Source: Plastoroseomonas arctica
GTDB lineage: Bacteria; Pseudomonadota; Alphaproteobacteria; Acetobacterales; Acetobacteraceae
Length of the DNA stretch: 64,000 bases
NCBI RefSeq assembly: GCF_018128965.1
Contig: NZ_JAAEDH010000001.1
Coordinates: forward strand, 186,001 to 250,000
Direction of reading: 5' to 3'
Position 1 is the first letter of the stretch. Each line of letters begins with the position of its first letter. Made by a program: the position numbers and the translations under genes. A model generated the notes under the pieces. It had not been told where the DNA came from and made no database searches. It worked only from the letters and a program-made list of their open reading frames with translations. Below, piece by piece: positions 33,507-54,356 of the stretch.

Positions 33507-33650
33507 CCTGGGGAAGACGCGGAAGAAGTGATACAGCGCACCGCCCCGGAGCCCGGCGGTGGCGGGATCGCTTCTACGCCTTCCCCTCCGGTCGTTTCGG
33601 AAGCGCCGCCAGGCCATCTTCGACCAGCGCCGTCGGAGTAGGCGGCTGCC

Positions 33651-33741
33651 TTGCCCCACTTGCCCCAACGCTGCCCCAAGGCTGGGGCAAGCGAAAAAGC
33701 CTTGTAGAATGGGCCTTGCCCCACTCGCCCCAGTTGCCCCA
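33651..33741 (+). repeat. Iteron-like TTGCCCCA repeat cluster, copy 2
   Basis: TTGCCCCA or close variants at 33651, 33660, 33671 (CTGCCCCA), inverted at 33683, then 33716, 33725 (TCGCCCCA) and 33734, with GAATGGGCC in the middle. It matches copy 1 (19708-19814) in inverted orientation. It lies in the 269-base gap between the Hint gene and the integrase gene, which contains no gene. A hairpin (CCCCAAGGCTGGGG) is present at 33674-33687. Confidence 0.8.
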
Positions 33742-33775
33742 ACGCAAAACAGATAGGGGAGGGCTTGGGACACCA

Positions 33776-35152: not shown

Positions 35153-35167
35153 GAGGAGAGAGCCTTC

Positions 35168-35308
35168 TGTGGGGACCAGCTTCGACGTCCCCACCTTAGT
35201 CCCCACAATATTCTAGCGCTAGCCTGAACCGTCCTGCATCACCCCGCGACGGTAAATACAATAATAATATGGCTTTCTCGGGGTGTGCAGCGTCGGCCTG
35301 CATCACCC
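35168..35308. promoter_or_regulatory. Integrase arm-type repeats and 12-bp direct repeats at the right end
   Basis: GTCCCCAC occurs in both orientations at 35168-35176, 35187-35194 and 35199-35207, matching the copies beside attL. Further right, CCTGCATCACCC is repeated directly at 35233-35244 and 35297-35308 in an A/T-rich stretch (about 35253-35272). This arrangement is what an integrase/excisionase recombination region looks like. The 175 bases between integrase start and attR hold no gene. Confidence 0.6.
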
Positions 35309-38060: not shown

Positions 38061-38876
38061 CTAGCCGAAGCGGCCGGTAATGTAGCGCTGGGTCTGCTTG
38101 TGCCGGGGTGACGTGAAGATCTGCGCGGCCGTGCCGCACTCGACCATCTCGCCAAGATAGAGGAACGCCGCCTTGTCAGAGCAACGCGCCGCCTGTGCGA
38201 GGTTGTGGGTCACCAGGGCGACGGTGACGTGCCCCTTGAGCGAGATGATCAGCTCCTCAATCAGCGCCATCGAGCGCGGGTCGAGCGCGCTGGTTGGCTC
38301 GTCGAGCAGCAGCACCTCGGGCTTCACCGCGAGCGCGCGGGCGATGCACAGGCGTTGCTGCTGCCCGCCGGACAGGCGTGCGGCCGGCTCGGCCAGCCGG
38401 TCCTTGACCTCACCCCACAGCGCGGCGCGGGTCAGCGCCTGTTCCACGCGCAATGCCGTCTCGGCGCGCGTCAGACGCTCGTGCAGCGCGATGCCGAAGG
38501 CGATATTGGCCTGGATCGACATCGGGAAGGTGGTGGCTTCCTGGAACACCATGCCGACGCGGCTGCGCAGGCGGCGCAGGTCCACCTCCGGTCCCAGGAT
38601 GTCGATGCCGTCGAGCGTCGCCGCACCGGTCGCGACCTGGCCAGGATACATGTCGTAGAGGCGGTTGAACACGCGCAGCAACGTCGACTTGCCACATCCC
38701 GAGGGACCGATAAGCGCGGTCACCTGATGCGCTGGCAAGTCGAGCGTGATGCATTTCAGCGCCACGGTCGCGCCATAGCGGAAGCCGAGATCGCGGATGG
38801 CGACTTTCGGCTGGCTTTTCTCGGGCATTGCACGCACCGGTGCGGGTTGGGCCAGGGCGAGCGGAGCGGGGATCAT
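38061..38876 (-). CDS. pstB: PstB-like phosphate ABC transporter ATP-binding protein
   Basis: A 271-residue ABC ATPase. It has Walker [14 protein letters not shown]-loop [12 protein letters not shown], signature LSGGQQQR, Walker [13 protein letters not shown] and a switch His in [13 protein letters not shown], with the PstB-typical [19 protein letters not shown]. No PstS, PstC or PstA lies nearby, so it is an orphan or works with a distant permease. The ATG at 38876 overlaps the upstream stop (ATGA). It is placed between a hypothetical gene and the mgtA pseudogene on the same strand, so a joint transcript is likely. Confidence 0.88.
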
Positions 38877-39685
38877 GCGGCCGCCCGTCCGTGCCAGCCG
38901 GCGATTGGCTCCAACAGCGCGTCCGGCCGTTCGGTGGCCGGCGCCGATTCGACCATGAAGACTGCGTCGCCATTCCCGCCGTCGACATGGATGACGAGGG
39001 CCTGCGCGTCGGCTGTGCCGATGTCGATCTGTATCCACAGGCGCGCAGCAGCACGGGCCCCCGTGGTGTCGAAGCCGGGATGGTCGAACTTCGGCGGCGC
39101 TGCGCGGTACAGCCCGGCCATGAAGGCCGCGACCTGCGGCTGGTCCGCGGCGGTGATCCCACAGACGGCCGCACCGTCGAGTATCTTCTCGGCAAGGTCG
39201 GCCTGCGTCGCGTTCAGCAGGTTGTGCAAATCCAGCAACAGCTGGTGTGGGCTGTCATGGCCGGCCTGCGTGATCGCGGCGGGCGAGATCAAGCGATAAG
39301 TCGCCGCGGGCAGGGGGCCCATCATGGCAGGGACCGGCTTCGCGAGCCCCGCCGTTGTGCCGGTCGGCAGCGCTGGCGCCGCCATGGGGCGCAGATCGTC
39401 GGGGATGCGCGCGCATATCTCGGATGCCTGCGGGATGCGGCGATCCGCGCCGGCCATCGCGGCGCCGGCGATGACCGGGCCGGCGATCCGGCGCGTCGAT
39501 GCCTCAGGCAATGCTTTCCGCCTTGAGGGCGCCCACCCGGGGTGCGGATGCTCCGCGTGGTCCATCGCCATCTGCGGCAGGCAGATGGCGTATTTCAGGC
39601 GGTCATCTGCAGCCAGCGCCGCGTTCACGGCGGCGCCGGGCCGAAGGCCGGCCTCGCCGATTGACGCGAGTATCTGCTGCTTCAT
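38873..39685 (-). CDS. Conserved protein of unknown function in the stress cluster
   Basis: A 270-residue protein without signal peptide or membrane helix. Readable pieces are [20 protein letters not shown] near the N-terminus, [22 protein letters not shown] in the middle and [35 protein letters not shown] in the C-terminal half. I recall similar proteins beside universal stress proteins in other alphaproteobacteria, but I cannot name the family. Its promoter region carries the shared motif (CGGAAACTACGG, 39759-39770), and it starts divergently from the USP gene. Confidence 0.7.
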
Positions 39686-39758
39686 CGAAGGGAGCCTCTC
39701 AGGCGGCGTGTGCGGTTCGGCGGAACAGCTAGCCGCCGCGGCTTCGCCACGGCAGGGG

Positions 39759-39813
39759 CGGAAACTACGGCGCCGTCCGGCCCCGCGCGGGCGAGACGCT
39801 GCGTAGTTTCCGA
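39759..39813. promoter_or_regulatory. Paired facing motif in divergent promoter, site A
   Basis: CGGAAACTACGG (39759-39770) and CGTAGTTTCCGA (39802-39813) are the same 11-base core on opposite strands, one facing each divergent gene. They lie 74 and 92 bases from the respective start codons. The same arrangement recurs at 53256-53307. Best explained as binding sites of one activator. Confidence 0.7.
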
Positions 39814-39904
39814 GGCTGCACGTCCCGCCCAGGCAGGCGGTAGAGAGGCGATCCGGCCCGCGTCACGCGATCTCGCGCGGCGCGCTGCCCCGATCGGACC
39901 CGCC

Positions 39905-40753
39905 ATGTTCCAGCATATCCTGCTGCCCGCCACCGGCGCGCCCGCCGACGCGGTGGTCTACGCAACGGCACGCGCCGCCGGCCTCGGCCAGCCGGTGCAT
40001 CTCGAAGTGCTGCACGTGAAGCGCGACCCGGTGGCCGCCGCGATCGGCCTGGCCGGCAGCGGCATGGATGGCGGCTATGGGGTGAGTTTGATGATCGACA
40101 CCATCGAAAAGGACGAGGTCGCCGCCGAGGCCGCGGCGCGCGCATCCTTCGCGTCGTTCCGCGCCGAATCCGGCGAGGCCACCGCCACCCTCACCGTCGA
40201 GACCAGCGATGAAGAACAATCCCTGATCGCGCATGGCCGCACCGCCGACCTCGTGGTGATCGGGCGCGGCGATGGCGGCGAGGATGTGGCGCTCGGCCGG
40301 ATGCAGGCGGTGCTGGCCGGGGTCGGGCGGCCGCTGCTGATCGCCGCGGCGCATAGCCCGCGCGCGCTGCTGGACACCGTCGTGATCGCCTGGAAGGACA
40401 CCGCCGAGGCGGCGCGCGCCGTGGGTGCGGCGATGCCCTTCATCGCGCGCGCCGGCCGCGTCCTGGTGGTGACCATCGGCGAAGATGAAGCCCCCACCGA
40501 GCCCGGCCCGGCCTCCGCCGCGCGGCTGGTGGCGACGCTGCTGCGGCACAATCCCGAGGTCAGCGCCTGGCATGTACCCGCCGGCGCCGGCAAGACCGGT
40601 GCGGAGGCATTGCTGGCGGCCGCGACCGAAGCGCGCGCGACGCTGCTGGTGATGGGCGCCTACGGCCATGGCGAGCTGCGCGAGATGGTGTTCGGCGGCT
40701 TCACCCGCAGCGTGCTCGGCGGCGCGCCGATGCCCGTGTTGATGATGCATTGA
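39905..40753 (+). CDS. Universal stress protein (tandem UspA domains)
   Basis: A 282-residue protein of two UspA-like halves. The first half begins MFQHILLPATGAPADAVVYATARAAGLG; the second ends with the ATP-binding signature MGAYGHGELREMVFGGFTRSVL. Tandem USPs are typical of stress- and low-oxygen-response regulons. The start follows the family N-terminus. The gene's stop overlaps the next start (TGATG), so it heads the exporter operon. Its upstream region holds the shared CGTAGTTTCCG motif. Confidence 0.9.
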   Translation: MFQHILLPATGAPADAVVYATARAAGLGQPVHLEVLHVKRDPVAAAIGLAGSGMDGGYGVSLMIDTIEKDEVAAEAAARASFASFRAESGEATATLTVETSDEEQSLIAHGRTADLVVIGRGDGGEDVALGRMQAVLAGVGRPLLIAAAHSPRALLDTVVIAWKDTAEAARAVGAAMPFIARAGRVLVVTIGEDEAPTEPGPASAARLVATLLRHNPEVSAWHVPAGAGKTGAEALLAAATEARATLLVMGAYGHGELREMVFGGFTRSVLGGAPMPVLMMH

Positions 40754-41973
40754 TGGCAAGCCCGCCCGCGGCGCCGCGCAGCCTCACACGATACTGGCGC
40801 TGGGGGCTGGCGCTGATCCCGGTGCTTGCGCTCGGCGCCTGGTTCGGCCCGGCGCTGCTGCTCGGCCCGCGCGTCAGTGTCACCCTGGTCTCTCGCGGCA
40901 CCCTGCTGCGAAGCGTGGTCGCGACCGGCGTCGTGACGACGCCCTATCGCGTAGCCATCGCCAGCCAGATCACCGGCACGGTCGCCGAGATCCCGGTGCT
41001 GGAGGGCCAGGCGGTCACCCTCGGCCAGGTGCTGGTCCGGCTCGAGGATGGCGAGCTGCAGGCGGGCCTCGCCCAGGCCCGCAGCGCCGTCGCGCAGGCG
41101 GAGACCCAGCTGCACCACCTCACCGAGGTGACCTTGCCGGTCGCGATCCGCACCCTCGCCCAATCCGAGGCGACGCTGCTCAATGCTGGCCGGCAATTCG
41201 CCCGCAGCGAGGCGCTGCAGACGAGTGGCTTCGCGACCCGCGCCGCGCTGGACGAGGCGCGTGTCGCGCGCGACGTCGCCGAGGCGCAGATGCAGGCCGC
41301 GCGCATCCAGCGCGACTCCAACACCCAGGGCGGCACCGATGAGGTCCTGGCCCAGGCGGTGCTGACCGAGGCGCGGGCCAGCCTGCGCGCGGCGCAGTCG
41401 CGCCTGGACCACGCCACCATCGCGGCACCCGTCGCCGGAACGCTCATCGCGCGGAGCATCGAGCGCGGCGATGTGGTGCAGGCGAACACGCCGTTGATGA
41501 CACTCTCGCCGCGGGCCGCGCCGCAGCTGGTGGTGCAGATCGACGAGCGCAACCTGGGCCTGATCGCCCTGGGCCAGCCGGCGCTGGCGTCGGCCGATGC
41601 CTATCCGCAGGCGCGATTCTCGGCGCGCGTCGCCTACATCAATCCCTCGGTGGACCCGCAGCGCGCGGCGGTCGAGGTGAAGCTCGACGTCCGCGAACCG
41701 CCGCCGGCGCTGCGCGAGGACATGACGGTCTCGGTCGACATCACCGTGGCCGAGCGCACCGGCATCCTGATCCTGCCGCTCACCGCGATCCGTGATGCCG
41801 CCGGTGCCGCCTGGATTCTGCGCGCCGAGGCCGGCCATGCGCGGCGGGTGCCGGTTCGCCTGGGGCTGCGCGGCGCCGTCGCGGCGGAAATCCTCGAAGG
41901 CCTTAGCGAGGGCGACCGGGTGCTGCCTGCCAGTGCCGCCGTCGCCGCCGGAGACCGGGTGCGCGCGCCATGA
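40753..41973 (+). CDS. MacA/HlyD-type membrane fusion protein
   Basis: A 406-residue periplasmic adaptor. It has one N-terminal membrane helix (WRWGLALIPVLALGAWFGPALLL), a barrel-sandwich segment (VVATGVVTTPYRVAIASQITGTVAEIPVLEGQAVTLGQVL), a long coiled-coil hairpin of Ala/Gln/Glu-rich helices, then beta-barrel (LVVQIDERNLGLIALGQPAL). Works with the permease and ATPase that follow. Its ATG overlaps the USP stop and its stop overlaps the permease start, so it is one transcription unit. Confidence 0.88.
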   Translation: MASPPAAPRSLTRYWRWGLALIPVLALGAWFGPALLLGPRVSVTLVSRGTLLRSVVATGVVTTPYRVAIASQITGTVAEIPVLEGQAVTLGQVLVRLEDGELQAGLAQARSAVAQAETQLHHLTEVTLPVAIRTLAQSEATLLNAGRQFARSEALQTSGFATRAALDEARVARDVAEAQMQAARIQRDSNTQGGTDEVLAQAVLTEARASLRAAQSRLDHATIAAPVAGTLIARSIERGDVVQANTPLMTLSPRAAPQLVVQIDERNLGLIALGQPALASADAYPQARFSARVAYINPSVDPQRAAVEVKLDVREPPPALREDMTVSVDITVAERTGILILPLTAIRDAAGAAWILRAEAGHARRVPVRLGLRGAVAAEILEGLSEGDRVLPASAAVAAGDRVRAP

Positions 41974-43196
41974 TCCGCTGGCTGCCCTTCGAGGGCATCG
42001 CCGCGCTGCGCTTCATGCGCGAGGGCTGGATCCAGACCATCTTCATCCTCGTGGGGGTCTCGCTGGGCGTGGCGGTGACGGTGTTCGAGACCTCCATCCT
42101 CACCGGGGTGCAGGCGAACTTCCTCAAACGCGTCCTGACCAGCCAAGCGCATATCGTGCTGCTGCCGCCCGACGAGGTCGCACGCCCGCTGCACGATGGC
42201 CCCGGCATCGTCGAGGATGCGACGCTGCAGCGCCCCAACCAGCGGTTGCGCTCGATTGACCAGTGGCAAACCATCCGCGCGACAGTCGCCTCCACCCCCG
42301 GCGTGCGCGTCGTTGCCTCCGTCGCCTCCGGCGCGGCGATGGCCGTGCGCGGGGACGCGACGGCGTCGATCTCCATCATCGGCGCCGAGCCCGAGGACTA
42401 CTTCCGCATCGTCCGCGTGCCCGACTACATCGTGGCCGGCACCTGGCGCCTGACCAGCGATGACATCCTGATCGGCACCGACCTCGCCACCCTGCTTGGC
42501 GTGACGGTGGGCGACCGGCTGTTCGTCACGGGGCGCTCGCCCACGCCGCGCGCGCTCACCATCACCGCCATCTTCGACCTCGGCAGCAAAGGGGCGAATC
42601 TGCGCACCACCTTCGTAGCCTTCCGCACCGGGCAGAGCCTGCTGAACCTGGTCGGCGGCGTCACCAGCCTCGAGATCGCGGTCGCCGACGCCTTCGCCGC
42701 CGAGACCATCGCGCAGGATCTGTCGGCCCGCACCGGCGTGCGCGCGGATAGCTGGATCAAGACCAATGCGCAGTTCTTCACCGCCGTGCAGGCCCAGAAC
42801 ACCTCCAACATCGTGATCAGCTCGGCCGTTGCGCTGTCGGTGGCCTTCGGCGTGGCGAGCGTGCTGGTGGTCTCGGTGGTGCAGCGCGGGCGCGAGATCG
42901 GCATCCTGCGCGCGATGGGCGCGCGGCGGGGGCAGGTGCTGCTGGTCTTTCTCCTCCAGGGCGGCGTGCTGGGCTTTCTCGGCGCGGTGCTGGGCTCACT
43001 GATCGGGGCGGGGCTGCTGCTCGTCTGGCATGACCAGGTGCGGCAGACGGATGGGACCGAGCTGTTCCCCTATGTCCTCGATCCGCTGCTGATCGGCGGC
43101 ACGCTCGCCTTCGCCTCCGTGGTCGGGTTGCTCGCCGGCATGGCGCCGGCGATGCAGGCGGCGCGGCTTGACCCGGCGGTGGCGATTCGTGGCTGA
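41970..43196 (+). CDS. MacB/FtsX-type ABC transporter permease
   Basis: A 408-residue permease. It has an N-terminal membrane helix ([19 protein letters not shown]), a periplasmic domain of about 220 residues, and a C-terminal FtsX domain of three helices with [38 protein letters not shown]. The conserved E-G-LRA-GA coupling motif ([13 protein letters not shown]) contacts the ATPase. ATGA overlap with the adaptor gene. The substrate of this MacAB-like complex is unknown. Confidence 0.88.
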
Positions 43197-43878
43197 GGAC
43201 GCGCTGCTGAGCGGCATCCGCAAATCCTTCAACATCGGCGCGCCCGCCGAGGTGGAGATCCTGCACGGCATCGACATCACGCTCGAACATGGCGCCTTCT
43301 GCGCGCTGATCGGGCCCTCGGGGTCGGGGAAATCCACCCTGCTCAACATCATCGGCCTGCTCGACCGGCAGAGTGCGGGGCGGCTGGTCATCGGGGGCAA
43401 GGATACCCAGGGCCTCGATGATGCGGCGCTGACGCGGCTGCGCGGCGAGACGATCGGCTTCGTCTTCCAGGCGCACAACCTGATCCCGGCCTTCACCGCG
43501 GCCGAGAACGTGATGATGCCCATGCTGCTCAGCCGCGGCTGGGCCGATGCCGCCATGCGCGCGGCGGCCGAGGCGCTGCTCGACCGCGTGGGCATGACGC
43601 GCTGGCGTGATGCGCGGGTGGGCAATCTCTCTGGCGGCCAGGCGCAGCGCGTGTCTATCGCGCGCGCGCTGATGATGAAGCCGGTGCTGGTGCTGGCCGA
43701 CGAGCCGACCGGCAATCTCGACACCGCCGCCGCCGACGGCGTCTTCGACATGATGCACACCATGAACCAGGAGCAGGGCATGACCTTCCTCATCGTCACG
43801 CATGATCCGCGGCTGGCCAAGCGCTGCGGGCGCATCATCGAGCTCGTCGACGGGCAGGTCGTGCAGGGGGCCGCCTAG
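43189..43878 (+). CDS. MacB/LolD-type ABC transporter ATP-binding protein
   Basis: A 229-residue ABC ATPase with Walker [14 protein letters not shown]-loop [12 protein letters not shown], signature [10 protein letters not shown], Walker [14 protein letters not shown] and the H-loop [11 protein letters not shown]. The pattern is that of LolD/MacB-type ATPases for lipoprotein or peptide export. It begins at a GTG overlapping the permease stop. It completes a MacAB-like exporter, whose next gene starts directly after its stop. Confidence 0.9.
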
Positions 43879-46158
43879 ATGCGCCGCAAGATCCTGCTGG
43901 CCTGGGTGCTGCTCGGCCTTGCGGGCGGCGCGGTGGCGTTCGCGCTTGGCTATGGCGTGGCGGCGGGCTGGGTCTGGTCCATCACCGCCTTGCCGGTGGC
44001 CGCCCATGTTGCCATCGGCGTCGTCCGCTCCCTGCTCGGCGGCAAGCTAGGCGTCGACATCATCGCGCTCGCCGCCATCCTGGCCGCCGTGGGCATGGGC
44101 GAGCCACTGACCGGCGCCGTCGTCGCGCTGATGGTGGCCGGCGGCGAGGCGCTGGAGGGCTGGGCGGAGGGCCGCGCCACGCGCGCGCTGACCGCCCTGC
44201 TCGCGCGCGCGCCGCGCCAGGCCGCGCGGGTGACCGCGACCGGGGTCGAGGAGATCGAGGTGGGCGCGATCGCGGTGGGCGACATCCTTCTCGTGCGCGC
44301 CGGCGAGACGGTGCCCTCCGATGGCGCGCTGGAGGATGCCGCCGCCACGCTCGACGACAGCGCGCTGACCGGCGAATCCCTGCCCGTCAACCTCGTCCAG
44401 GGCGGGCGGCTGCGCAGCGGCGCGGTCAATGCCGGCGCCGCCTTTCGCATGCGCGCCGAGCAGACCGCCGCGACGAGCAGCTATGCCGCCATCATCCGCC
44501 TCACGCGCGATGCCGCCGAGACCCGCCCGCCCCTCGCGCGGCTCGCGGATCAATGGGCGCTGGGATTCGTGGCACTCACCGCGCTCGTCGCCGGCGGTGC
44601 CTGGGCCTGGACGGGCGATTCGGTGCGCGCGCTGGCCGTGCTGGTGGTGGCCACGCCCTGCCCGCTGATCCTCGCCGCGCCCATCGCCCTGGTGGCGGGC
44701 ATTGGGCGCGCGGCGGCGCGCGGCATCGTCATCAAGGGCGGCGGCGCGCTGGAGCGTCTCGCGCGTGTCCAGACCATGCTGTTCGACAAGACCGGCACGC
44801 TCACCACCGGCCATCTGCGCCTCGCCGCCATGGATGTGGCGCCGGGGATGGATCGCGATGCGGCGCTGCGCCTCGCCGGCATCCTGGCGCAGGGCTCGAC
44901 GCATCCGGTCTCCGAGGCGCTGGCCCAGGCAGCGCGGGCACGCGGCCTCGCGCTGCCGCTACTGGATGCGCCGGAGGAGGCGGCGGGCGGCGGTGTCGCG
45001 GGCAGCGTGGCGGGCGTGCGCGTGCTGCTCGGCAGCCAGGCCTTCCTGGCGAAGCAGGGCGTGGCCGATCTGGATGGCCTCGGCGCCTCGGCGGCGCTGG
45101 TCGCGGTGGCGGGCTCCGTGTCCTTCCTGGCGCGGGAGGGTCGCGCGGTGGCGGTGTTCGTCCTGGCCGACACGCTGCGCCCCGAGGCCCCGCGCACGCT
45201 GCGCGCGCTTCGCGGGCTGGGCGTGACGCGGATGGTGATGCTGACCGGCGATCGCGCCGCTGCCGCCGCGCCCATCGCCGCCGCCCTGCGCCTTGATGCG
45301 GTGCAGGCGGATTGCGCACCGGCCGAGAAGATCACCGCCGTGCACCAGGAATCGGCCAAGGTCGCGACCGCGATGGTCGGCGACGGCATCAATGACGCGC
45401 CGGCGCTGGCCGCGGCTGGGGTGGGAATCGCCATGGGCGCGCAGGGCACCGCGGCGGCGGCCGAGGCCGGTGATGTGGTGCTGCTGGTCGACCGGCTGGA
45501 CCGCGTCGTGGACGCGATCGCCATCGCGCGGCGCAGCCGGCGCATCGCGTTGCAGGCGATTGGCCTGGGGATGGGGCTGTCGGGTGTCGCGATGGTGGCG
45601 GCGGCCGGCGGGCTGCTCATGCCGCTCGCGGGCGCGGTGCTGCAGGAGGGGATCGACGTCCTCGCCATCCTGTTCGCGCTGACCGCCTTGCGGCCAGGCC
45701 GGAGCGAGCGTGCGTCGGCGCCGTTGCCCGCTTCCGCCGGCCTTGCGGAGCGCGAGGCGGAGCACACCGCGCTGCGCGGGCTTGCCGAAGCGCTGCGCGA
45801 CACCGCCGAGGGCATGGATGCCGGCGCGGGCGCCCTCCCCGCCATCGAGGCGCTGGACGCGCGCCTGCGCGCCGAGGTGCTGCCGCATCAGCGCGCCGAG
45901 GAAAGCACTCTCTACCCGGCCGCGGCGCAGCGCCTGGGCGGGGTGGACCCAATGGGCCCGCTGATCCGCATGCACAGCGCCATCGAAATCCTGGTCGGCC
46001 AGCTCGGCCACCTCATCGTCGCCGCGCATGGTCCGGGCGGCTGGGAGGCCGCATCCGGCCCCATCCGGCGCAGCCTGTTCGAGCTGGAAGCGATGCTCAG
46101 CCTGCACCTGACCATCGAGGAGGAGGCGCTCGCTGAACTCGGCGACGCGCCTGCGTAG
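43879..46158 (+). CDS. P1B-type metal-transport ATPase fused to a C-terminal hemerythrin domain
   Basis: A 759-residue heavy-metal P-type ATPase. Visible motifs: TGES actuator, the membrane metal site ATPCPLI near residue 258, the phosphorylated Asp in FDKTGTLTTG near 302, GDGINDAPAL near 500, and a last-helix motif VLQEGID near 588. There is no N-terminal HMA domain. Residues 614-759 form a hemerythrin-like domain with EREAEHTALR, LPHQRAEESTLYP, RMHSAIE and LSLHLTIEEEALAEL carrying the expected His/Glu ligands. This combination is that of the P1B-5 group, described with Ni/Fe/Co, and hemerythrin is an O2/Fe sensor. It begins at the ATPase stop. Confidence 0.9.
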   Translation: MRRKILLAWVLLGLAGGAVAFALGYGVAAGWVWSITALPVAAHVAIGVVRSLLGGKLGVDIIALAAILAAVGMGEPLTGAVVALMVAGGEALEGWAEGRATRALTALLARAPRQAARVTATGVEEIEVGAIAVGDILLVRAGETVPSDGALEDAAATLDDSALTGESLPVNLVQGGRLRSGAVNAGAAFRMRAEQTAATSSYAAIIRLTRDAAETRPPLARLADQWALGFVALTALVAGGAWAWTGDSVRALAVLVVATPCPLILAAPIALVAGIGRAAARGIVIKGGGALERLARVQTMLFDKTGTLTTGHLRLAAMDVAPGMDRDAALRLAGILAQGSTHPVSEALAQAARARGLALPLLDAPEEAAGGGVAGSVAGVRVLLGSQAFLAKQGVADLDGLGASAALVAVAGSVSFLAREGRAVAVFVLADTLRPEAPRTLRALRGLGVTRMVMLTGDRAAAAAPIAAALRLDAVQADCAPAEKITAVHQESAKVATAMVGDGINDAPALAAAGVGIAMGAQGTAAAAEAGDVVLLVDRLDRVVDAIAIARRSRRIALQAIGLGMGLSGVAMVAAAGGLLMPLAGAVLQEGIDVLAILFALTALRPGRSERASAPLPASAGLAEREAEHTALRGLAEALRDTAEGMDAGAGALPAIEALDARLRAEVLPHQRAEESTLYPAAAQRLGGVDPMGPLIRMHSAIEILVGQLGHLIVAAHGPGGWEAASGPIRRSLFELEAMLSLHLTIEEEALAELGDAPA

Positions 46159-46249
46159 AATCCGAAGCTGCCTTGACGGTGTAGCGCGCGCCTAGGGTGC
46201 CGTCGCTCGAGCAAGCCGCTTATCGATGCCCCCGTTCGAGGAATTCCCC

Positions 46250-46345
46250 ATGTCGCACAACGCCCAGCTGAAGCAGGCCGTTCTTTCGGATTGAACTGGG
46301 AGCCCAGTATCCATTCCGCCCATACATCGCTTCGCCGACCGGGCC
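46250..46345 (+). pseudogene. Truncated and frameshifted remnant of a BON-domain protein
   Basis: ATG 46250 gives MSHNAQLKQAVLSD then a stop, but one frame over the sequence continues LNWEPSIHSAHTS. The joined reading is the start of a BON-domain, OsmY-like protein. One base is missing between the two parts, and everything after position about 46340 is lost and replaced by a nitroreductase remnant on the other strand. Dead gene. Confidence 0.6.
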
Positions 46346-46352
46346 TGATCGC

Positions 46353-46570
46353 AGCGCCCCTACAACTCTCCGCCGTGCAGCCAAGGCTCACGAACAGATG
46401 GTGGTCATCGGGGTCGACCATCATGGTGCGTTGCGCGAGGTCCGGCAGGATGTCCACGCCCTCAGCGCGCACCCGGATGCGCCACGTCTGCCTGTTGTGG
46501 AAGTTGGGCGCGAGCGTCGCGTGCCGGATGAGGTCCGGCATGCCGGGCGGTACGGGGGGAGCCTGGCGTG
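46353..46570 (-). pseudogene. Fragment of an Acg-like nitroreductase
   Basis: Minus-strand frame with PPVPPGMPDLIRHATLAPNF, then HNRQTWRIRV and MMVDPDDHHLFVSLGCTAES. It matches in character the N-terminal third of Acg/nitroreductase-family proteins common in low-oxygen regulons. No start in context and no C-terminal two-thirds, so it is a truncated remnant. Together with the BON fragment it fills most of the 511-base gap between 46158 and 46670. Confidence 0.6.
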
Positions 46571-46669
46571 AGGGGAGGCGGCTTCGCACGCCTATTCGCC
46601 TATGCCGCGTCTCGCACGCGCGGTGAGCGCCACCGCGACGCCCCGGCGCCGGCCCGACCAGACGGCGAT

Positions 46670-49600
46670 TCATGCCACGGGCGTCGTCAGGGCATCGGCA
46701 TGGAAGCGGCTGCCGTCGCGCGCGGCCAGCGCCTCGTAATCCGCGTATTTCTCCAACACCGCCAACTGCGCCTGCGCGAGGAGCACTGCGGCCTCGTCCG
46801 GCCGGGTGTTCACCAGGCTGCGGTAGCGCAGCTCGTTATAGGCGTAGTCCTTCAGCGGGATGGCGGGCCTGGGGCTGTCGAGGCGGAAGGGCGCCTCGCC
46901 GGCGCGGCGCATCGCCGGGTTGAAGCGGAACAGCGGCCAGTAGCCCGAGGCCGTCGCCAGGTCCTGCTGCTTCATCCCGTAGCGCAGGTCATAGCCATGC
47001 GCGATGCAGTGGCTGTAGGCGAGGATGAGCGAAGGCCCCGGCCAAGCCTCGGCCTCGCGGAAGGCGAGCAGCGTGTGTTGCGGGTTCGCCCCCATCGCCA
47101 CCTGCGCGACGTAGACATTGCCGTATGCGATGGCCTGCAGGGCGAGGTCCTTGCGCGCAGTGCGCTTGCCGGCCGCGGCGAATTTCGCGACCGCGCCCAA
47201 AGGTGTGGCCTTCGAGGCCTGGCCGCCAGTGTTGGAATACACCTCCGTGTCCAGGACCAGTACGTTCACGTCGCGGCCGCTAGCGAGCACGTGGTCCAGC
47301 CCGCCGAAGCCGATGTCATAGGCCCAGCCATCGCCACCCACGAGCCAGATGCTGCGACGGACCATGTGGTCGAGCACGGAGAGCAGGTCGCGCGCGCCGG
47401 GTGCGTCGCCGAGTGCCAGCAGCCGCGTCTGCAGCGCCGCCACGCGCTGGCGCTGCGCGACGATTTCGGATTCGCGGATCTGCGGCGCGGCGATCGCGGC
47501 TTCGACCAGGTCTGCGCCCAGCTGAGGTGCCAACTGCCGCAGCAACCGGATGGCAAGCGCGAGGTGCATGTCGGCGGCGAGCCGGAAGCCTAGGCCGAAT
47601 TCCGCATTGTCCTCGAACAGCGAGTTCGACCAGGCCGGCCCGCGCCCGGCCTTGTCCTTGGCCCAAGGGGTGACCGGCAGGTTACCGCCATAGATGGAGG
47701 AGCAGCCGGTGGCATTGGCGATCTGCGCGCGGTCGCCGAACAGCTGCGAGAGCAGGCGCAGATAGGGCGTTTCGCCGCAGCCGCCGCAGGCGCCGGAGAA
47801 TTCGAACAGCGGCTCGAGGAACTGCACGCCGCGCACATCGGCGAAATCGACCAGCGCGCGGTCGTTCACCGGTAGCGTTTCGAAGAAGGCGATGTTGTCC
47901 CGCTCGGCCGCCAGCACCGGGCCCTTGGGCGCCATGTTGATCGCGCGGTGCTTCGGATCCTCCGGTGCATGCGCGGGGCAGACCTCCACGCACAATCCGC
48001 AGCCGGTGCAGTCCTCGACATAGAATTGCAGGGTGAATCGTGAGTCCGGATAGCCGCGCGCGTTCACCGGCGCCGTCTTGAAGGTCTTGGGCACGTCGAC
48101 GAGACGGACCGTGTCGAAGAAGCGCGCGCGGATCACCGAATGCGGGCAGGCGATGGAACACTGGCCGCACTGGATGCAGAGCTCCGTGTCCCAGATCGGC
48201 ACATCCTCGGCGATGTTGCGCTTCTCCCAGGCCGCGGTGCCGACGGGGAAGGTGCCGTCAACCGGCATCGCGCTCACCGGCAGCGCATCGCCATGCCCGG
48301 CCATGATCGCGGCGGTCACCCGCTTGACGAAGGCGGGGGCGGCGTCCGGCACGATGGGCGGGCGTTCGAGCGTGCTGGTGGCACTCGCGGGGATCGTCAC
48401 CTCGTGCAGGTTGGCCAGCGCCTGGTCCACGGCCGCGTTGTTCTGCGCCACCACGGCGGCGCCCTTTTCGGCGTAGCTGTGCGTGATCATGGCCTTGATG
48501 CGGCGGATCGCCTCGTCGCGCGGCAGCACGCCCGAGAGCGCGAAGAAGCAGGTCTGCAGCACGGTGTTGATGCGCCCGCCAAGGCCCGCGTCGCGCGCCA
48601 CCTTCGTGGCATCGATCACGAAGAGGCGCAGCTGCTTCGCGATGATGTCCTGCTGCACCGTGCGCTGCAGATGCGCCCAGGCCTCGCTTGCCGGATGCGG
48701 GCAGTTGAGCAGGAAGGCCGCGCCTGGTGCGGCCAGGCTAAGCACGTCCACACGCTCGAGAAACTCGAACTGGTGGCAGCCGACGAAGCTGGCCTGCGCG
48801 ATCAAGTAGGGCGCCTCGATCGGCGCCGACCCGAAGCGCAGATGCGAGACGGTCTGCGCGCCGGATTTGTGCGAATCATAGACGAAGTAGCCCTGCGCGT
48901 AGCGGCCCGCATCCTCGGACAGGATCTTCACGCTGCCCTTGTTGGCGCCCACCGTGCCGTCCGAGCCGAGGCCGTAGAAGACCGCACGCGTCACCGTCGA
49001 TGGCTCGATGGAGAAGTGCGGGTCCAAGGTGAGGCTGGTATGCGTGATGTCGTCGTCGATGCCGATGGTGAAGCCATGGCGCGGCGCCGGCTTGCCCAGC
49101 TCGTCGAACACGGCCTTCGCCATGGCCGGGGTGAAGTCCTTCGACGACAGGCCATAGCGCCCACCGATCACGCGCGGCATCACGGCGCGGGTGCCCGACG
49201 CCACCGCTTGCGCCAGCGTGGCGATCACGTCGAGGTAGAGCGGCTCGCCGGTAGCACCGGGTTCCTTGACGCGGTCCAGGACCGCCACGGCGCGCGCCGT
49301 GATCGGCAGTGCTGCGAGGAAATGCGTGGCCGAGAATGGCCGGTAGAGCCGCACCTGCAACACGCCGAGCTTCGCATCGCCCGCAAGCGCGGCGGCGGTG
49401 CCGCGTGCGGTCTCCGCTGCCGAGCCGATCAGCACCACCACCCGCTCGGCGTCCGGCGCCCCGGCATATTCGAACAGCCGGTAGCGGCGCCCGGTCAGGG
49501 TCGCGAAGCGCGCCATGGCGGCGTCCACGATCGCGGGTGTGGCGGCGTAGAAAGGGTTGGAGGCCTCGCGCGCCTGGAAGAAGGTGTCCGGGTTCTGCGC

Positions 49601-50290
49601 CGTACCGCGCATCACCGGATGCTCTGGCGAGAGCGCCCGCGCGCGATGCGCCCAGACCAGCGGCTCGGGGATCATCGCGCGGATCTCGGCATCATCGAGC
49701 AGGGTCAGTGTGTTCAGCTCGTGCGAGGTGCGGAAGCCGTCGAAGAAATGCATGAAGGGCACGCGGCTCTCGAGCGTCGCGGCCTGGGCGATGAGCGCCA
49801 TGTCATGCGCCTCCTGCACCGAGCCGGCCGAGAGCAGCGCGAAGCCGGTGGAGCGGATCGCCATCACATCCGAATGGTCGCCGAAGATGGACAGTGCCTG
49901 GGTCGCGACCGAACGCGCGGCGACATGGAAGACGCAGGAGGTCAACTCACCCGCGATCTTGAACATGTTGGGCAGCATCAGCAGCAGCCCTTGGGAGGAG
50001 GTGAAGGTGGTGGTCAGCGCGCCCGATTGCAGCGCGCCATGCACCGCGCCGGCGGCACCGCCCTCGCTCTGCATCTCCTGGACCACCGGGATGCCGCCCC
50101 AGATGTTGGTGAGCCCATCGGCGGCCCATTCATCGGCGAGTTCCGCCATCGTCGAGGAGGGCGTGATGGGGTAGATCGCGCAGACCTCGTTCACCCGGTA
50201 GGCGACATGCGCGCAGGCGGTGTTGCCGTCCATCGTTGCCTTGGCGTGAGTAGCCGTGGCGGTCTGGAGAATGGGGGACAGGGCGTTCAT
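46670..50290 (-). CDS. nifJ: Pyruvate:ferredoxin (flavodoxin) oxidoreductase
   Basis: A 1206-residue single-chain PFOR, converting pyruvate, CoA and oxidised ferredoxin to acetyl-CoA, CO2 and reduced ferredoxin without oxygen. Seen in order: the pyruvate-binding domain YPITPSSTMAELADEW; the gamma/linker parts; two 4Fe-4S ferredoxin sites, CIQCGQCSIACPH and CTGCGLCVEVCPA; and the TPP-binding C-terminus with GACGGCGETPYL, NATGCSSIYGG and the GDGWAYDIGFGGLD metal-TPP motif. The ATG at 50290 overlaps the upstream stop. Unusual for a mostly aerobic genus, so it implies micro-oxic or anaerobic metabolism. Confidence 0.95.
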   Translation of the reverse strand: MNALSPILQTATATHAKATMDGNTACAHVAYRVNEVCAIYPITPSSTMAELADEWAADGLTNIWGGIPVVQEMQSEGGAAGAVHGALQSGALTTTFTSSQGLLLMLPNMFKIAGELTSCVFHVAARSVATQALSIFGDHSDVMAIRSTGFALLSAGSVQEAHDMALIAQAATLESRVPFMHFFDGFRTSHELNTLTLLDDAEIRAMIPEPLVWAHRARALSPEHPVMRGTAQNPDTFFQAREASNPFYAATPAIVDAAMARFATLTGRRYRLFEYAGAPDAERVVVLIGSAAETARGTAAALAGDAKLGVLQVRLYRPFSATHFLAALPITARAVAVLDRVKEPGATGEPLYLDVIATLAQAVASGTRAVMPRVIGGRYGLSSKDFTPAMAKAVFDELGKPAPRHGFTIGIDDDITHTSLTLDPHFSIEPSTVTRAVFYGLGSDGTVGANKGSVKILSEDAGRYAQGYFVYDSHKSGAQTVSHLRFGSAPIEAPYLIAQASFVGCHQFEFLERVDVLSLAAPGAAFLLNCPHPASEAWAHLQRTVQQDIIAKQLRLFVIDATKVARDAGLGGRINTVLQTCFFALSGVLPRDEAIRRIKAMITHSYAEKGAAVVAQNNAAVDQALANLHEVTIPASATSTLERPPIVPDAAPAFVKRVTAAIMAGHGDALPVSAMPVDGTFPVGTAAWEKRNIAEDVPIWDTELCIQCGQCSIACPHSVIRARFFDTVRLVDVPKTFKTAPVNARGYPDSRFTLQFYVEDCTGCGLCVEVCPAHAPEDPKHRAINMAPKGPVLAAERDNIAFFETLPVNDRALVDFADVRGVQFLEPLFEFSGACGGCGETPYLRLLSQLFGDRAQIANATGCSSIYGGNLPVTPWAKDKAGRGPAWSNSLFEDNAEFGLGFRLAADMHLALAIRLLRQLAPQLGADLVEAAIAAPQIRESEIVAQRQRVAALQTRLLALGDAPGARDLLSVLDHMVRRSIWLVGGDGWAYDIGFGGLDHVLASGRDVNVLVLDTEVYSNTGGQASKATPLGAVAKFAAAGKRTARKDLALQAIAYGNVYVAQVAMGANPQHTLLAFREAEAWPGPSLILAYSHCIAHGYDLRYGMKQQDLATASGYWPLFRFNPAMRRAGEAPFRLDSPRPAIPLKDYAYNELRYRSLVNTRPDEAAVLLAQAQLAVLEKYADYEALAARDGSRFHADALTTPVA

Positions 50291-51924
50291 GCGTGGGCTT
50301 CCTGGACCATGTCGATGGCGTGGCAGGGGCATTGCTCGAAGCAGATGGCGCAGCCGGTGCAGTGGTCGAGATCGACGTCATAGCCGGCGCCGTGGGCGAG
50401 CTTGACGATCGCCTGCTCGGGACAGGATGCGAAGCACTGGTCGCACTCGTAGCAGTTGCCGCAGGAGAGGCAGCGCTGCGCCTCGTGCCGCGCGGCGGGT
50501 TCGGCAAGGCCATCCGTGGTCTCGACGAAGCTCGCGCCCATGCGCGCGCCGACCGGCAGCTCGTGCTGGGTCGCGAGTGGGGCATCGGCGTAGATCGGCA
50601 GGTGCAGCATATCGAAGCTGATGCCGGTGCGCGGCGGCTGTGCGGCCACCGTCACGCCACGCAGCCAGGCGTCGATATGGCGAGCGGCCTTCTTGCCGCC
50701 GCCCACCGCTGCGGTCACGCTGCGGTCACCGGAGACCATGTCACCGCCGGCGAAGACGCCCGCATGCCCGGTCATCATGCCGGCATCGACCTGCACATTG
50801 CCGTCCGCGCCGATCACCATGCCGGGGATGGCGCCGAGGAAGCCGGTATCAGCCTTCTGCCCGAGGGCGAGGACCACGGAATCGGCGGCGAGCGTCTCCA
50901 TCTCGCCGGTCGGCTGCGCGCGTCCCTCGGCATCGAGCGCCATGCGCTCCACCGTGATCGCGCCCGCGCCGATGTCGTGGATGCTGCTGAGCCAATGGAT
51001 TTTGATGCCTTCGTCGAGCGCCTCCTGCGCCTCGAAGGCATGCGCCTCCATATGCGCGCGGTCGGAGATGAAGACGATCATCGCCTCCTCGGCGCCCAGC
51101 CGCCGGGCGGTGCGTGCGGCATCCATCGCCGTGTTGCCCGCGCCATAGACCACGACACGGCGACCGAGTTTTGGCGCGGTGCCGGCGGCCGCGTCGTGCA
51201 GCAAGTTGATGGCGGTGAACACCTTCGCCGCATCGCGCGCGGGGATGTCGATGCGCTTGCCGATCTGCGTGCCGATCGCGATGAACACCGCGTCGAAGCG
51301 GCCTTCCGCCTGTTCCGCCAGCAGGTCCGTCACCTTGTGGTTCACCGTGATGGTCACGCCCATCGCTTCGATGCGCCGGACCTCCTTCATCAACTCCTCG
51401 CGCGGCAGGCGATAGGCGGGGATGCCGAAATGCAGCATGCCGCCCGGCAGTGGCCCGGCGTCGCGGATTTCCACCGTGTGGCCGGCGCGCGCGAGGTGAT
51501 AGGCGGCGGCCATGCCCGAGGGTCCGGCGCCGATCACCAGCACGCGCTTGCCGCTCGGCGCGGCGGTGATGCGCGGCACCCAGCCCTGGGCCGACGCCAT
51601 GTCGCCGAGGAAGCGCTCGACGGCATGGATGCTCACCGCGCTGTCGAGCTGCGCGCGATTGCAGCCGGTTTCGCAGGGGTGATAGCAGACGCGGCCATGC
51701 ACGGCAGGGAAGGGGTTGTCGCGCAGGATCACCTCCCACGCCTCGCGAAATTTCCCCGCCTGGGCGAGGTCGAGCCACGCCTGGATGTCCTCGCCGGCCG
51801 GGCAGGCAGCGTTGCAGGGCGGCAGCAGTGCGACCCATTCGGGATGCTTTGTCCGCGCCGGGCCGGTGCCCTTCTGGCGCAGCAGGTCGATGGTCGGCGT
51901 GAAGTCGGCGAGGAGAGCGGTCAT
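50287..51924 (-). CDS. GltD-like FAD/NAD(P) oxidoreductase with C-terminal 4Fe-4S domain
   Basis: A 545-residue protein of the glutamate synthase small-subunit family. N-terminal Fe-S region with PPCNAACPAGEDIQAWLDL and CYHPCETGCNR, then FAD site VLVIGAGPSGMAAAYHLARAG, NADPH site VVVYGAGNTAMDAARTARR, and GDMVSGDRSVTAAV. The C-terminus adds two ferredoxin clusters (CLSCGNCYECDQCFASCP and CTGCAICFEQCP). No large GltB subunit is near, so it probably moves electrons between NADPH and the ferredoxin used by PFOR. It overlaps both neighbours by four bases. Confidence 0.9.
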   Translation of the reverse strand: MTALLADFTPTIDLLRQKGTGPARTKHPEWVALLPPCNAACPAGEDIQAWLDLAQAGKFREAWEVILRDNPFPAVHGRVCYHPCETGCNRAQLDSAVSIHAVERFLGDMASAQGWVPRITAAPSGKRVLVIGAGPSGMAAAYHLARAGHTVEIRDAGPLPGGMLHFGIPAYRLPREELMKEVRRIEAMGVTITVNHKVTDLLAEQAEGRFDAVFIAIGTQIGKRIDIPARDAAKVFTAINLLHDAAAGTAPKLGRRVVVYGAGNTAMDAARTARRLGAEEAMIVFISDRAHMEAHAFEAQEALDEGIKIHWLSSIHDIGAGAITVERMALDAEGRAQPTGEMETLAADSVVLALGQKADTGFLGAIPGMVIGADGNVQVDAGMMTGHAGVFAGGDMVSGDRSVTAAVGGGKKAARHIDAWLRGVTVAAQPPRTGISFDMLHLPIYADAPLATQHELPVGARMGASFVETTDGLAEPAARHEAQRCLSCGNCYECDQCFASCPEQAIVKLAHGAGYDVDLDHCTGCAICFEQCPCHAIDMVQEAHA

Positions 51925-53195
51925 GCCCGGACCTCCTTCGCACCGGTCTCGCGCAGCACGAAGGTCAGGACCAGCGCGAGCAGGATCGCGCCCAGCCAGA
52001 TGAAATTGGCCTGGGCGAAGACATCGGCCGAGAGCGGCGCGCCGTTCGCGATCCGCATCAACGCATAGCCGAAGGCGGGGGCGAGCAGCGCGGAGCAGCT
52101 GAACACCAGGAAATTCATCGCCCCCGTGGCGCTGCCCTTCACGCGGTCCGGGTTCGCTTCCTTGATCATTGCGTATGGGATCATCGCGGCACCCGAGCCG
52201 ATGCCGAAGACCAAGCCGCCGAGATAGGGCGGGATCACATGGCCGAACCAGGCGATGCCCACGCCCGAGAGCAGCATCAACGCGATGCCGCCATAAAGCG
52301 CGGGCTTCCGCCGCCCCATACGGTCCGCAATGTAGCCCAGCAGCGGCGCGCCGATCACCCAGCCGAGCGGCACCATCGAGGCGCGCGTGACCGCTTCACC
52401 CGTCGCGACACCTTCGCCGAGATGGAGGAAGGGCACGCCCCAGATCATGTCGCCGATGGTGGTCGGCATGAACAGCAGCCCGCCGATCAGGCCGCAGAGC
52501 CAGGATTGCGGATTGGCCAGCACCACCTTGAATGGTGCGAACATCGTCCAGATCGAGCCCTTGGCGGGCTCATGGTTGGCCGGTGTCACGATCAGCATCA
52601 GCACCGCGACGATCGCGACCGCCGCACCCGCGATGAACCAGAAGGACTGCCAGGCGATCGGCCCATGCACCAGCGGTCCCACCGCGAATTGCCCGGCGAA
52701 GCCACCCAGCATCCCGGCCAGCTGCGTGAAGCCCACCGCGGTGGCCAGCCACTTCGCGGAGAACCCGTGCACCGCAAGATAGACCGCGCCGGTGAAGGCG
52801 AAGGCCGATCCCGCGCCCTGCAAAAGCCTCCCGCCCTCGACCGAGCTGATCGAGCCCAGCCCGAACAGCACGCTGCCCGCCGCAGTCGCCAGCAGGCCGA
52901 TGAAGATCGGCAGCTTGGCGCCGAAGCGGTCGAGCGAGGCGCCCGAGATCAGCGCGAATCCGGCATAGGTGTAGTAGTACATGCCCAGCAGCGCGCTGAC
53001 GCCGAGCGTGGTCAGGCCGAAGGCGGCGGTGAGCTCGGGGATCATGACGCCCGGCGCGGAGCGGATCGCGTATTGCAGGAAGTAGAAGACCAGGCAGAGC
53101 GCCCAGGCGATGATGTACATCGTGCGGGGCTCCGCCGCCGTGGCGCGCGGCGGCGCCAGGAGCAGCGGTGGGGCGATCGCGATCGTCTCGGCCAT
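51921..53195 (-). CDS. Major facilitator superfamily transporter
   Basis: A 424-residue transporter with twelve hydrophobic segments and the MFS loop motif DRFGAKLPIF between helices 2 and 3, repeated as DRMGRRKPALY between 8 and 9. Members of this branch move small organic acids or nitrate. Being first in the operon with PFOR and the GltD-like flavoprotein and divergent from a D-lactate-type dehydrogenase, a carboxylate such as lactate, formate or pyruvate is a reasonable guess. AGGAGC precedes the ATG. Its promoter carries a version of the shared motif (53256). Confidence 0.87.
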   Translation of the reverse strand: MAETIAIAPPLLLAPPRATAAEPRTMYIIAWALCLVFYFLQYAIRSAPGVMIPELTAAFGLTTLGVSALLGMYYYTYAGFALISGASLDRFGAKLPIFIGLLATAAGSVLFGLGSISSVEGGRLLQGAGSAFAFTGAVYLAVHGFSAKWLATAVGFTQLAGMLGGFAGQFAVGPLVHGPIAWQSFWFIAGAAVAIVAVLMLIVTPANHEPAKGSIWTMFAPFKVVLANPQSWLCGLIGGLLFMPTTIGDMIWGVPFLHLGEGVATGEAVTRASMVPLGWVIGAPLLGYIADRMGRRKPALYGGIALMLLSGVGIAWFGHVIPPYLGGLVFGIGSGAAMIPYAMIKEANPDRVKGSATGAMNFLVFSCSALLAPAFGYALMRIANGAPLSADVFAQANFIWLGAILLALVLTFVLRETGAKEVRA

Positions 53196-53255
53196 GGCGT
53201 CTGCTCCTGTTCGTTGGCCAGAGGTTAGTCGCGGTAGCGCATCGCGGGGCAGGTT

Positions 53256-53307
53256 CGGAAAGTACCGAGGCGCCGCCGCTCGCGCCCCCTGCCTGCGTAG
53301 TTTCCGA
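53256..53307. promoter_or_regulatory. Paired facing motif in divergent promoter, site B
   Basis: CGGAAAGTACCG (53256-53267) faces the leftward MFS/PFOR operon and CGTAGTTTCCGA (53296-53307) faces the rightward dehydrogenase. The pair repeats site A (39759/39802), with nearly equal spacing (40 versus 43 bases) and 57-61 bases to the start codons. The rightward copy shares GCGTAGTTTCCGA with site A, followed by CGC or GGC. Confidence 0.7.
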
Positions 53308-53363
53308 CGCTCTCACCCCCTGCGGCGCCGCGGCTACACAGGCGGAACACGGAGGCGCTCGCC

Positions 53364-54356
53364 ATGCATGTCGCGGTCTTCAGCAGCAAACCCTATGACG
53401 AGCACTTCCTCGGTGCCGCCGCGTCGGGGACGCATGAGTTGGATTTCCTCGAGGCGCGGCTGACGCCGCAGACGGCAGTGTTGGCGCGAGGCGCCGACGC
53501 TGTCTGCGCCTTCGTCAACGACCAGGTGAACGCGGCCGTGCTGGCCGAGTTCAAGGCGCTGGGCGTGGGCATCGTCGCGCTGCGGGCGGCGGGGTACAAC
53601 AATGTCGATCTTGACGCGGCGCAGCGCTGCGGCATCACCATCGCCTATGTGCCGGCCTATTCGCCCGATGCCGTGGCCGAGCATGCGCTGGCCATGATGA
53701 TGGCCCTGAACCGTAACATCCACCGAGCCTGGCTGCGCGTGCGGGAGGGAAACTTCGCCCTCGAGGGCCTGCTTGGATTCAACATGCGCGGGCGCTGCGT
53801 CGGCATCATCGGCACCGGGCGGATCGGTGCGGCGATGGTGCGCATCATGCTGGGGATGGGGTGCAGGGTAATCGCGCATGACCCGGTGCCCGACCCGACG
53901 CTGGGCATCGCCTACCTGCCGCTGGACGCGGTGCTGGCGGAGGCCGATATCCTCACGCTGCACTGCCCGCTCACCCCCGCGACGCGGCACCTGATCGATG
54001 CCGCGACCATCGCGCGCATGAAGCGCGGGGTGATGCTGATCAACACCAGCCGCGGCGCCATCGTGGATACGGCGGCAGTGATCGCGGGCCTGAAGACCGG
54101 CGCCATCGGCCATCTCGGCCTCGACGTCTACGAGGAGGAGGCGGGGCTGTTCTTCGAGGACAAGTCCGACGCGATGATCGGCGACGACGTCTTCGCCCGC
54201 CTGCTGACCTTCCCCAACGTGCTGGTCACCGGCCACCAGGGTTTTTTCACCGCCGAGGCGTTGACCGCCATAGCGCAGACCACCATCGCTAACCTTGCGG
54301 CCTTCGCCGCGACTGGGCGCGCGGTGCATGAGATCGCCGCACCGTCCGCCGGCTAG
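53364..54356 (+). CDS. D-2-hydroxyacid dehydrogenase (D-lactate dehydrogenase type)
   Basis: A 330-residue NAD-dependent 2-hydroxyacid dehydrogenase, of LdhA type. It starts MHVAVFSSKPYDEHFL, with RAAGYNNVDL (substrate-binding Arg region), AEHALAMMMALNR, the NAD loop GIIGTGRIGAAM, INTSRGAIVDT with the catalytic Arg, LDVYEEE with the catalytic Glu, and VTGHQGFFTAEAL with the catalytic His. Reduces pyruvate to D-lactate, which would regenerate NAD+ in low oxygen. Preceded by a motif copy 57 bases upstream and GGAGGC near the ATG. Confidence 0.9.
   Translation: MHVAVFSSKPYDEHFLGAAASGTHELDFLEARLTPQTAVLARGADAVCAFVNDQVNAAVLAEFKALGVGIVALRAAGYNNVDLDAAQRCGITIAYVPAYSPDAVAEHALAMMMALNRNIHRAWLRVREGNFALEGLLGFNMRGRCVGIIGTGRIGAAMVRIMLGMGCRVIAHDPVPDPTLGIAYLPLDAVLAEADILTLHCPLTPATRHLIDAATIARMKRGVMLINTSRGAIVDTAAVIAGLKTGAIGHLGLDVYEEEAGLFFEDKSDAMIGDDVFARLLTFPNVLVTGHQGFFTAEALTAIAQTTIANLAAFAATGRAVHEIAAPSAG

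Follow-up and report, generated by a model that had tools for sequence, protein, structure and literature searches.

We analysed a 64,000-nucleotide (64-kb) stretch of the Plastoroseomonas arctica genome (contig NZ_JAAEDH010000001.1, positions 186,001 to 250,000), hereafter the window, in which two divergent intergenic regions each carry a facing pair of one short motif that is likely the core of an activator site. A universal stress protein (USP) gene and a gene without an assigned function diverge from the first region (the USP divergon), while a D-2-hydroxyacid dehydrogenase gene and an operon comprising a major facilitator superfamily (MFS) transporter, an oxidoreductase, and a pyruvate:ferredoxin oxidoreductase (PFOR) diverge from the second. 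A motif scan of the window placed CGTAGTTTCCG exactly at 39759-39769 (-), 39802-39812 (+), and 53296-53306 (+), with a fourth copy, GGTACTTTCCG, two mismatches from CGTAGTTTCCG, at 53256-53266 (-); the facing pairs described in the initial annotation are therefore real. These four are the only perfect GTASTTTCC cores in the 64 kb; each points to its own gene, with the start codon 67-102 bp downstream, and the core-to-core distance is 43 bp at the USP divergon and 40 bp at the MFS/dehydrogenase divergon. The 11-mer is the core of a longer 19-bp site, CTNNGTASTTTCCGANSCT, recognised from sites in other genomes, and all four window sites have a TA at +38 or +39 from the core G. The sites, inferred -10 boxes, and genes are as follows.

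35478-37190 and 37199-38053 (-): cation P-type ATPase in two frames, leftward operon
38061-38876 (-): ABC ATPase, downstream in the leftward operon
38873-39685 (-): first gene of the leftward operon, 270 amino acids (aa), function not assigned, 65% identical to residues 1-246 of a 628-aa protein
39726-39731 (-): predicted -10 box for the leftward promoter, TAGCTG, at the fixed spacing of 58/86 sites (see below)
39754-39772 (-): predicted activator site of the leftward operon, CGCCGTAGTTTCCGCCCCT, two mismatches from the 19-mer, TA at +38
39799-39817 (+): predicted activator site of the USP operon, exact 19-mer, TA at +39
39841-39846 (+): predicted -10 box for the USP promoter, TAGAGA, at the fixed spacing
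39905-40753 (+): USP, first gene of the rightward operon (Pfam Usp)
40753-46158 (+): HlyD-type, ABC permease, ABC ATPase, and P-type ATPase-hemerythrin genes, likely one operon with the USP gene
46151-46169 (+): degenerate fifth site before a BON gene remnant, CTGCGTAGAATCCGAAGCT, two mismatches, TA at +39
46193-46198 (+): predicted -10 box of the degenerate fifth site, TAGGGT
46670-50290 (-): PFOR (TIGR02176, 1656 bits, cut-off 911)
50287-51924 (-): NAD(P)-binding GltD-like oxidoreductase
51921-53195 (-): MFS transporter
53222-53227 (-): predicted -10 box for the MFS-PFOR promoter, TAACCT, at the fixed spacing
53251-53269 (-): predicted activator site of the MFS-oxidoreductase-PFOR operon, exact 19-mer, TA at +39
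53293-53311 (+): predicted activator site of the D-2-hydroxyacid dehydrogenase gene, exact 19-mer, TA at +39
53335-53340 (+): predicted -10 box for the dehydrogenase promoter, TACACA, at the fixed spacing
53364-54356 (+): D-2-hydroxyacid dehydrogenase (Pfam 2-Hacid_dh)

The initial annotation had called for a genome-wide scan of the motif, and the outcome depends on the length of the word. The short word occurs at chance frequency in this genome, which speaks against a regulon and, for this word taken literally, is the outcome by which the initial annotation would have its prediction refuted: the 11-mer CGTAGTTTCCG has 6 matches versus 4 for its reversed control, and GTASTTTCCG has 9 versus 11. 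In contrast, the exact 19-mer occurs five times in the 4.44 Mb, three times in the window and twice on another contig (C2), compared to no exact match for the reversed 19-mer and about 0.003 expected from base composition. A one-mismatch 19-mer precedes a USP gene on C2, and there is no other exact or one-mismatch copy in the 4.44 Mb. When three or fewer mismatches are allowed there are 32 matches versus 64 for the control, so only close matches are informative. The TA at +38/+39 is present in 9/9 credible sites of this genome, namely the four in the window, the degenerate fifth at 46151, and four on C2. Matches at C1:452224 (inside a gene), C14:64325, C4:171979, and C31:33248 (the latter two being loci L091 and L092) lack this TA and were set aside as chance; a possible weak site before an OYE gene (C2:267143, three mismatches) also lacks a -10 TA.

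It is the location of the core matches that stands out: apart from those in the window, they cluster on C2 at 257-266 kb, in a locus paralogous to the window region. The USP divergon matches this C2 locus at 80.7% over 1,842 bp, and the MFS promoter has 109 bp in common with the promoter of a C2 nitroreductase gene at 82.6% identity, so not every site in this genome counts as independent. The window region resembles a duplicate of the C2 locus that has partly decayed. Remnants are found at 46151-46673, where a BON gene and its promoter (76%, 193 bp, covering the C2 BON promoter and gene start) and a nitroreductase (76%, 329 bp) can be recognised from their C2 copies. These copies raise the question of whether the motifs are mere leftovers of duplication rather than regulatory signals, which we regard as extremely improbable: the two window divergons are otherwise unlike, their longest common exact stretch being 15 bp, at the motif, and other common words 13 bp or shorter, and the 19-mer with its -10 spacing is seen again ahead of unrelated genes of other genera and orders, where the sequence between the two is not conserved.

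Among 395 genomes of the family Acetobacteraceae, the exact 19-mer is found in 44 (138 sites), whereas the reversed pattern is found once. Rhodopila is part of this family set, as two of the contigs have sequence in common with named Rhodopila records. We aligned 86 distinct sites, after removing four of 90 by hand (two from the Saprospiraceae contig L117, one within a gene in L112, and one at an edge in L076); identical 40-mers were counted once, while near-identical sites from sister genomes remain. A T at -2, the core, G10, A11, C14, and T15 are conserved, G16-C17-C18 weakly so, and little else until the TA, which occurs at +38/+39 in 58/86 sites compared to four or fewer at any other offset. 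Two largely separate sets of sites, with the overlap removed, contain it in 19/33 and 15/31 cases. Based on the position of the -10 box, the site would lie at about -52 to -35 from the transcription start, a position suited to an activator and in agreement with the activator that the initial annotation proposed for these operons. The fixed distance upstream of the start region could also suggest the -35 element of an alternative sigma factor. However, the usual spacer between -35 and -10 elements is 16-19 bp, and with the core G 38-39 bp before the -10 TA the word is too far away; as its core also fits a known FixJ site (discussed below), a sigma factor element is hardly credible. The 19-mer is almost certainly a conserved operator of the activator type.

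Facing pairs with a 30-60 bp gap number 12 in 9/395 family genomes, versus two control pairs. A stricter pair, sought in one scan of the named genome collection, was found in 22 stretches from 21 genomes, 21 of the stretches being alphaproteobacterial by title (Acetobacteraceae, Rhizobiales, Sphingomonadales, Caulobacterales, Rhodobacter-type, and Magnetospirillum) and one a Saprospiraceae bin. An initial strict search, with a 26-41 bp gap, had matched only P. arctica itself among 299 genomes because the other genomes use wider gaps. The nearly equal spacing to which the initial annotation drew attention carries no meaning: the 29 distinct pairs, one of them the Saprospiraceae pair, were obtained from searches that allowed gaps of 25-60 bp and are 34-67 bp apart without helical phasing (Rayleigh p 0.81). 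The facing arrangement thus reflects two divergent promoters, and each site serves its own outward promoter.

The first genes behind the sites in the fetched loci comprise 117 distinct sequences, part of which are annotated. Metabolic members include a zinc alcohol dehydrogenase, phosphoketolase, MaoC-Pta, acetate kinase, aldehyde dehydrogenase, PfkB kinase, transaldolase/PGI, and the MFS-PFOR operon, and stress-type members include YflT-like, BON, USP, SPFH, ferritin-like, DnaJ, and Cpn10 proteins; an Asp-Ala exchanger and SOUL, VIT, and partial cyclic nucleotide (cNMP)-binding proteins are also found. The last of these, a CRP-like gene examined as a possible fixK-like target, lies 247 bp behind a one-mismatch site in one family genome. 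On C2, a single site is followed by a row of genes for BON, YflT, a 582-aa protein, MaoC-Pta, AckA, and an enoyl-ACP-reductase-type protein. The target set reads as genes for fermentation, energy, and survival, consistent with the energy-type gene set of the initial annotation. Its prediction of a shared regulon is likewise supported.

The initial annotation guessed at a response regulator of NarL/FixJ type, which appears right in class. The window core agrees with nine of the ten bases of the FixJ consensus from systematic evolution of ligands by exponential enrichment (SELEX), given as GTAGTTTCCC or GTAMGTAG in the part of the published account that also gives the Sinorhizobium meliloti fixK site as TAAGTAATTTCCCTTA (PMC4999443). 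A FixJ-like helix-turn-helix (HTH) protein both co-occurs with the sites and is linked to them. In P. arctica (G000) this is a 1417-aa hybrid encoded outside the window (C2:267174-271427), 1.2 kb from the C2 nitroreductase site, with CheB, CheR, PAS, HisKA, HATPase, two receiver (REC), and GerE domains according to Pfam. The best PDB match of its last 210 residues is FixJ (5xso, E 1.5e-37), and the DNA-binding domain of S. meliloti FixJ (1x3u) is also matched. On the NCBIfam FixJ equivalog model the hybrid scores 203.7 bits, below the cut-off of 255, so we describe it as FixJ-like and do not file it as FixJ. The kinase and first receiver (residues 840-1202) are nearest the NahK/ErcS' NCBIfam family, although the score of 342.9 bits is below the cut-off of 400. 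With 60 candidates scored, the hybrid is the only FixJ-like REC-HTH match in this genome at E<=1e-12, and it is likely the regulator here.

The part of the hybrid from kinase to HTH is matched at E<=1e-120 in 77/395 family genomes. Of the 395 genomes, 36 have both site and protein, 8 the site alone, 41 the protein alone, and 310 neither of them (odds ratio 34, p 5e-22); the hybrid is thus present in 36/44 genomes with sites versus 41/351 without. When grouped by genus, 24 have both, 2 only the site, 14 only the protein, and 59 neither (24/26 versus 14/73, p 3e-11). One-mismatch sites are found in 21 of the 41 protein-only genomes (59 sites, control 8), compared to 7 of 39 genomes with neither (11 sites, control 5), the latter having been taken in list order rather than at random, with two left out. 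Three of the eight site-only genomes contain a REC-HTH relative in a looser search. As to linkage, 117 sites were listed in protein-positive genomes (the first places per genome, compared with hybrid genes chosen as relevant or having a usable start); the distance to the hybrid gene is at most 20 kb for 26 of them and at most 5 kb for 13. Ten genomes have a site 123-243 bp upstream of where the regulator is estimated to start, but each of these sites is oriented towards the divergent neighbour, which gives no hint of autoregulation. In Sphingomonas (L270:6157-6537) and Roseiarcus (L271:4794-5174), small single-receiver genes diverge from the hybrid gene behind a site; the Sphingomonas protein has a weak receiver match in Pfam. 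These small proteins may belong to the same phosphorelay.

Besides the frequency of the short words, several observations weigh against the proposed site and its reader. The TA is absent at +38/+39 from 28/86 sites, and 20 of the 41 hybrid-positive genomes without an exact site also lack a one-mismatch site. Some of the 77 protein alignments end before the HTH, at least two of them at contig ends. Related genomes are not independent, and ancestry was handled by genus grouping alone. Finally, a REC-HTH match at E<=1e-15 is absent from 5 of the 44 genomes with sites, including one that is rated 100% complete. This last point would be expected if a separate DNA-binding protein read the motif and the hybrid gene merely travelled with the regulon, as would the occurrence of the HTH in other proteins in Caulobacterales and Rhodobacter-type genomes. 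We consider a separate reader unlikely, as P. arctica encodes no second close FixJ-like REC-HTH at the threshold used above and the HTH signature occurs on the contig of the pair also in genomes that lack the kinase.

That signature, a nearly invariant DNA-binding helix of the NIAADLGISQRTVENHRA type (SKNIAADLGISQRTVE), is present at 28/30 family loci and 21/22 best loci (49/52), the exceptions being L137, L155, and L222. The regulator is found on the contig of the pair in 10/22 stretches, in eight by shared sequence or directly (L114, L118, L120, L121, L127, L129, L130, and L133) and in two less directly (L113 and L131). The proteins that carry the helix differ among lineages. In 14/21 named genomes the matched module ends an open frame of >1000 aa, while in two Caulobacterales it occurs within a REC-HTH. 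In a Rhodobacter genome (L268:9347-10120) the helix is part of a 257-aa PAS-like-HTH protein, whose N-terminal part is 27% identical to the PAS of the hybrid over 97 aa (E 5e-5), and in a Pseudorhodobacter genome (L269:5236-5619) it is part of a 127-aa HTH-only protein; neither contains a receiver or kinase. The helix was not found in 3/21 named genomes, namely Magnetospirillum, a 1.9 Mb Methylovirgula bin, and the Saprospiraceae bin; Magnetospirillum encodes 40% identical modules with another helix.

These observations make it reasonably likely that the sites define an undescribed alphaproteobacterial anoxia/energy regulon with one conserved operator and one FixJ-like helix (SKNIAADLGISQRTVENHRA), in which the input module is exchanged between lineages. 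Acetobacteraceae, Sphingomonadales, and Rhizobiales would use a single-protein CheB-CheR-PAS-kinase-REC-REC-HTH phosphorelay, Caulobacterales a plain REC-HTH, and Rhodobacter-type genomes a PAS-like-HTH or HTH-only protein. If this hypothesis is correct, a phosphorelay has been merged into a single polypeptide in which sensing and DNA binding are combined, and one DNA-binding module has been rewired to different sensors while its operator stayed fixed.

Overall, we think it probable that the short word is the core of an activator site read by a FixJ-type HTH, likely that of the hybrid, for fermentation, energy, and stress operons. The sequences show the site with its -10 spacing, its conservation, the genes that it precedes, and the co-occurrence and linkage of the regulator; we infer binding, activation, the phosphorelay, and the low-oxygen signal. 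According to this model, the kinase would phosphorylate the receivers as the supply of oxygen or electron acceptors falls, and the HTH would recruit RNA polymerase at a weak -35 region. The operons switched on in P. arctica would be those of PFOR and the hydroxyacid dehydrogenase, two USP operons, the BON-to-AckA operon, and the nitroreductase, with facing pairs arising where two site-driven promoters are divergent. The gene content somewhat favours low oxygen as the signal, since enzymes of fermentation or with oxygen sensitivity (PFOR, phosphoketolase, Pta, AckA, and alcohol dehydrogenase) are numerous among the targets. However, the similarity of the kinase-REC part to the NahK/ErcS' family (343 bits, below the cut-off of 400) and the general stress targets (USP, YflT, DnaJ, Cpn10, ferritin-like, and SPFH) suggest that the same regulator may instead respond to energy or envelope stress, nitric oxide, or light, a possibility that deserves consideration, although we do not expect it to hold.

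Some features of the window concern the operons themselves or their surroundings. The leftward operon opens with a truncated copy, 270 aa long and with no Pfam match (38873-39685), of the gene for a conserved 628-aa protein (L016:5380-7266) to which no function is assigned and which has a sub-threshold PhoU-like match at its C-terminus. A relative of the first gene of this operon is present in 21/249 family genomes; across the 24 matched loci, a perfect core occurs in only three genomes besides P. arctica, so the gene is not always a member of the regulon. The break in the reading frame of the leftward P-type ATPase, near 37190-37199, is a frameshift or an assembly error. In the rightward operon, one protein (43879-46158) combines a P-type ATPase with a C-terminal hemerythrin domain. 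Adjoining the regulon cluster, the region 16271-35206 is possibly an integrated element: it contains a tRNA-Glu (16271-16346), a stretch of lower GC (24-32 kb), and genes for a DUF927 protein and a phage-type integrase (33776-35206).

Neither the motif nor the regulator was named among the matches listed in our literature search. The gene set recurs in many Alphaproteobacteria, and a named regulator for it was not found in the literature searched. Our analysis provides a specific operator, a promoter geometry, and a candidate master regulator for the phosphoketolase, Pta-AckA, PFOR, alcohol dehydrogenase, USP, and BON set, and its targets should be predictable from sequence in many genomes, including uncultured ones.

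Among known systems, the hybrid resembles FixJ of the FixL-FixJ system in its REC-HTH output module (a receiver with a GerE/LuxR-type HTH), in an HTH close to that of S. meliloti FixJ (1x3u), and in the core GTAGTTTCC common to the window sites and the SELEX consensus. Unlike FixJ, which has a separate haem-PAS kinase, FixL, the output of the hybrid is fused to its own CheB-CheR-PAS-kinase-REC part, and its predicted targets are fermentation and stress operons. The targets given in the relevant part of a published alphaproteobacterial reconstruction of FixJ regulation are, for Rhizobiales, nifA, fixK, fixX, and a gene for proline hydroxylase, and, for Caulobacterales, fixK (PMC4999443). The kinase and first receiver are most similar to the NahK/ErcS' hybrid kinases, but the hybrid differs from these in falling below the family cut-off and in carrying CheB-CheR at its N-terminus and a DNA-binding receiver at its C-terminus. 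A comparable combination of genes is reportedly found in the low-oxygen-activated (lxa) locus of Burkholderia cenocepacia, where USPs and metabolic and stress genes are said to be induced at low oxygen. In the DosR dormancy regulon, a regulator of the NarL/FixJ family acts through paired sites, different from the site described here, before USP and metabolic genes under hypoxia.

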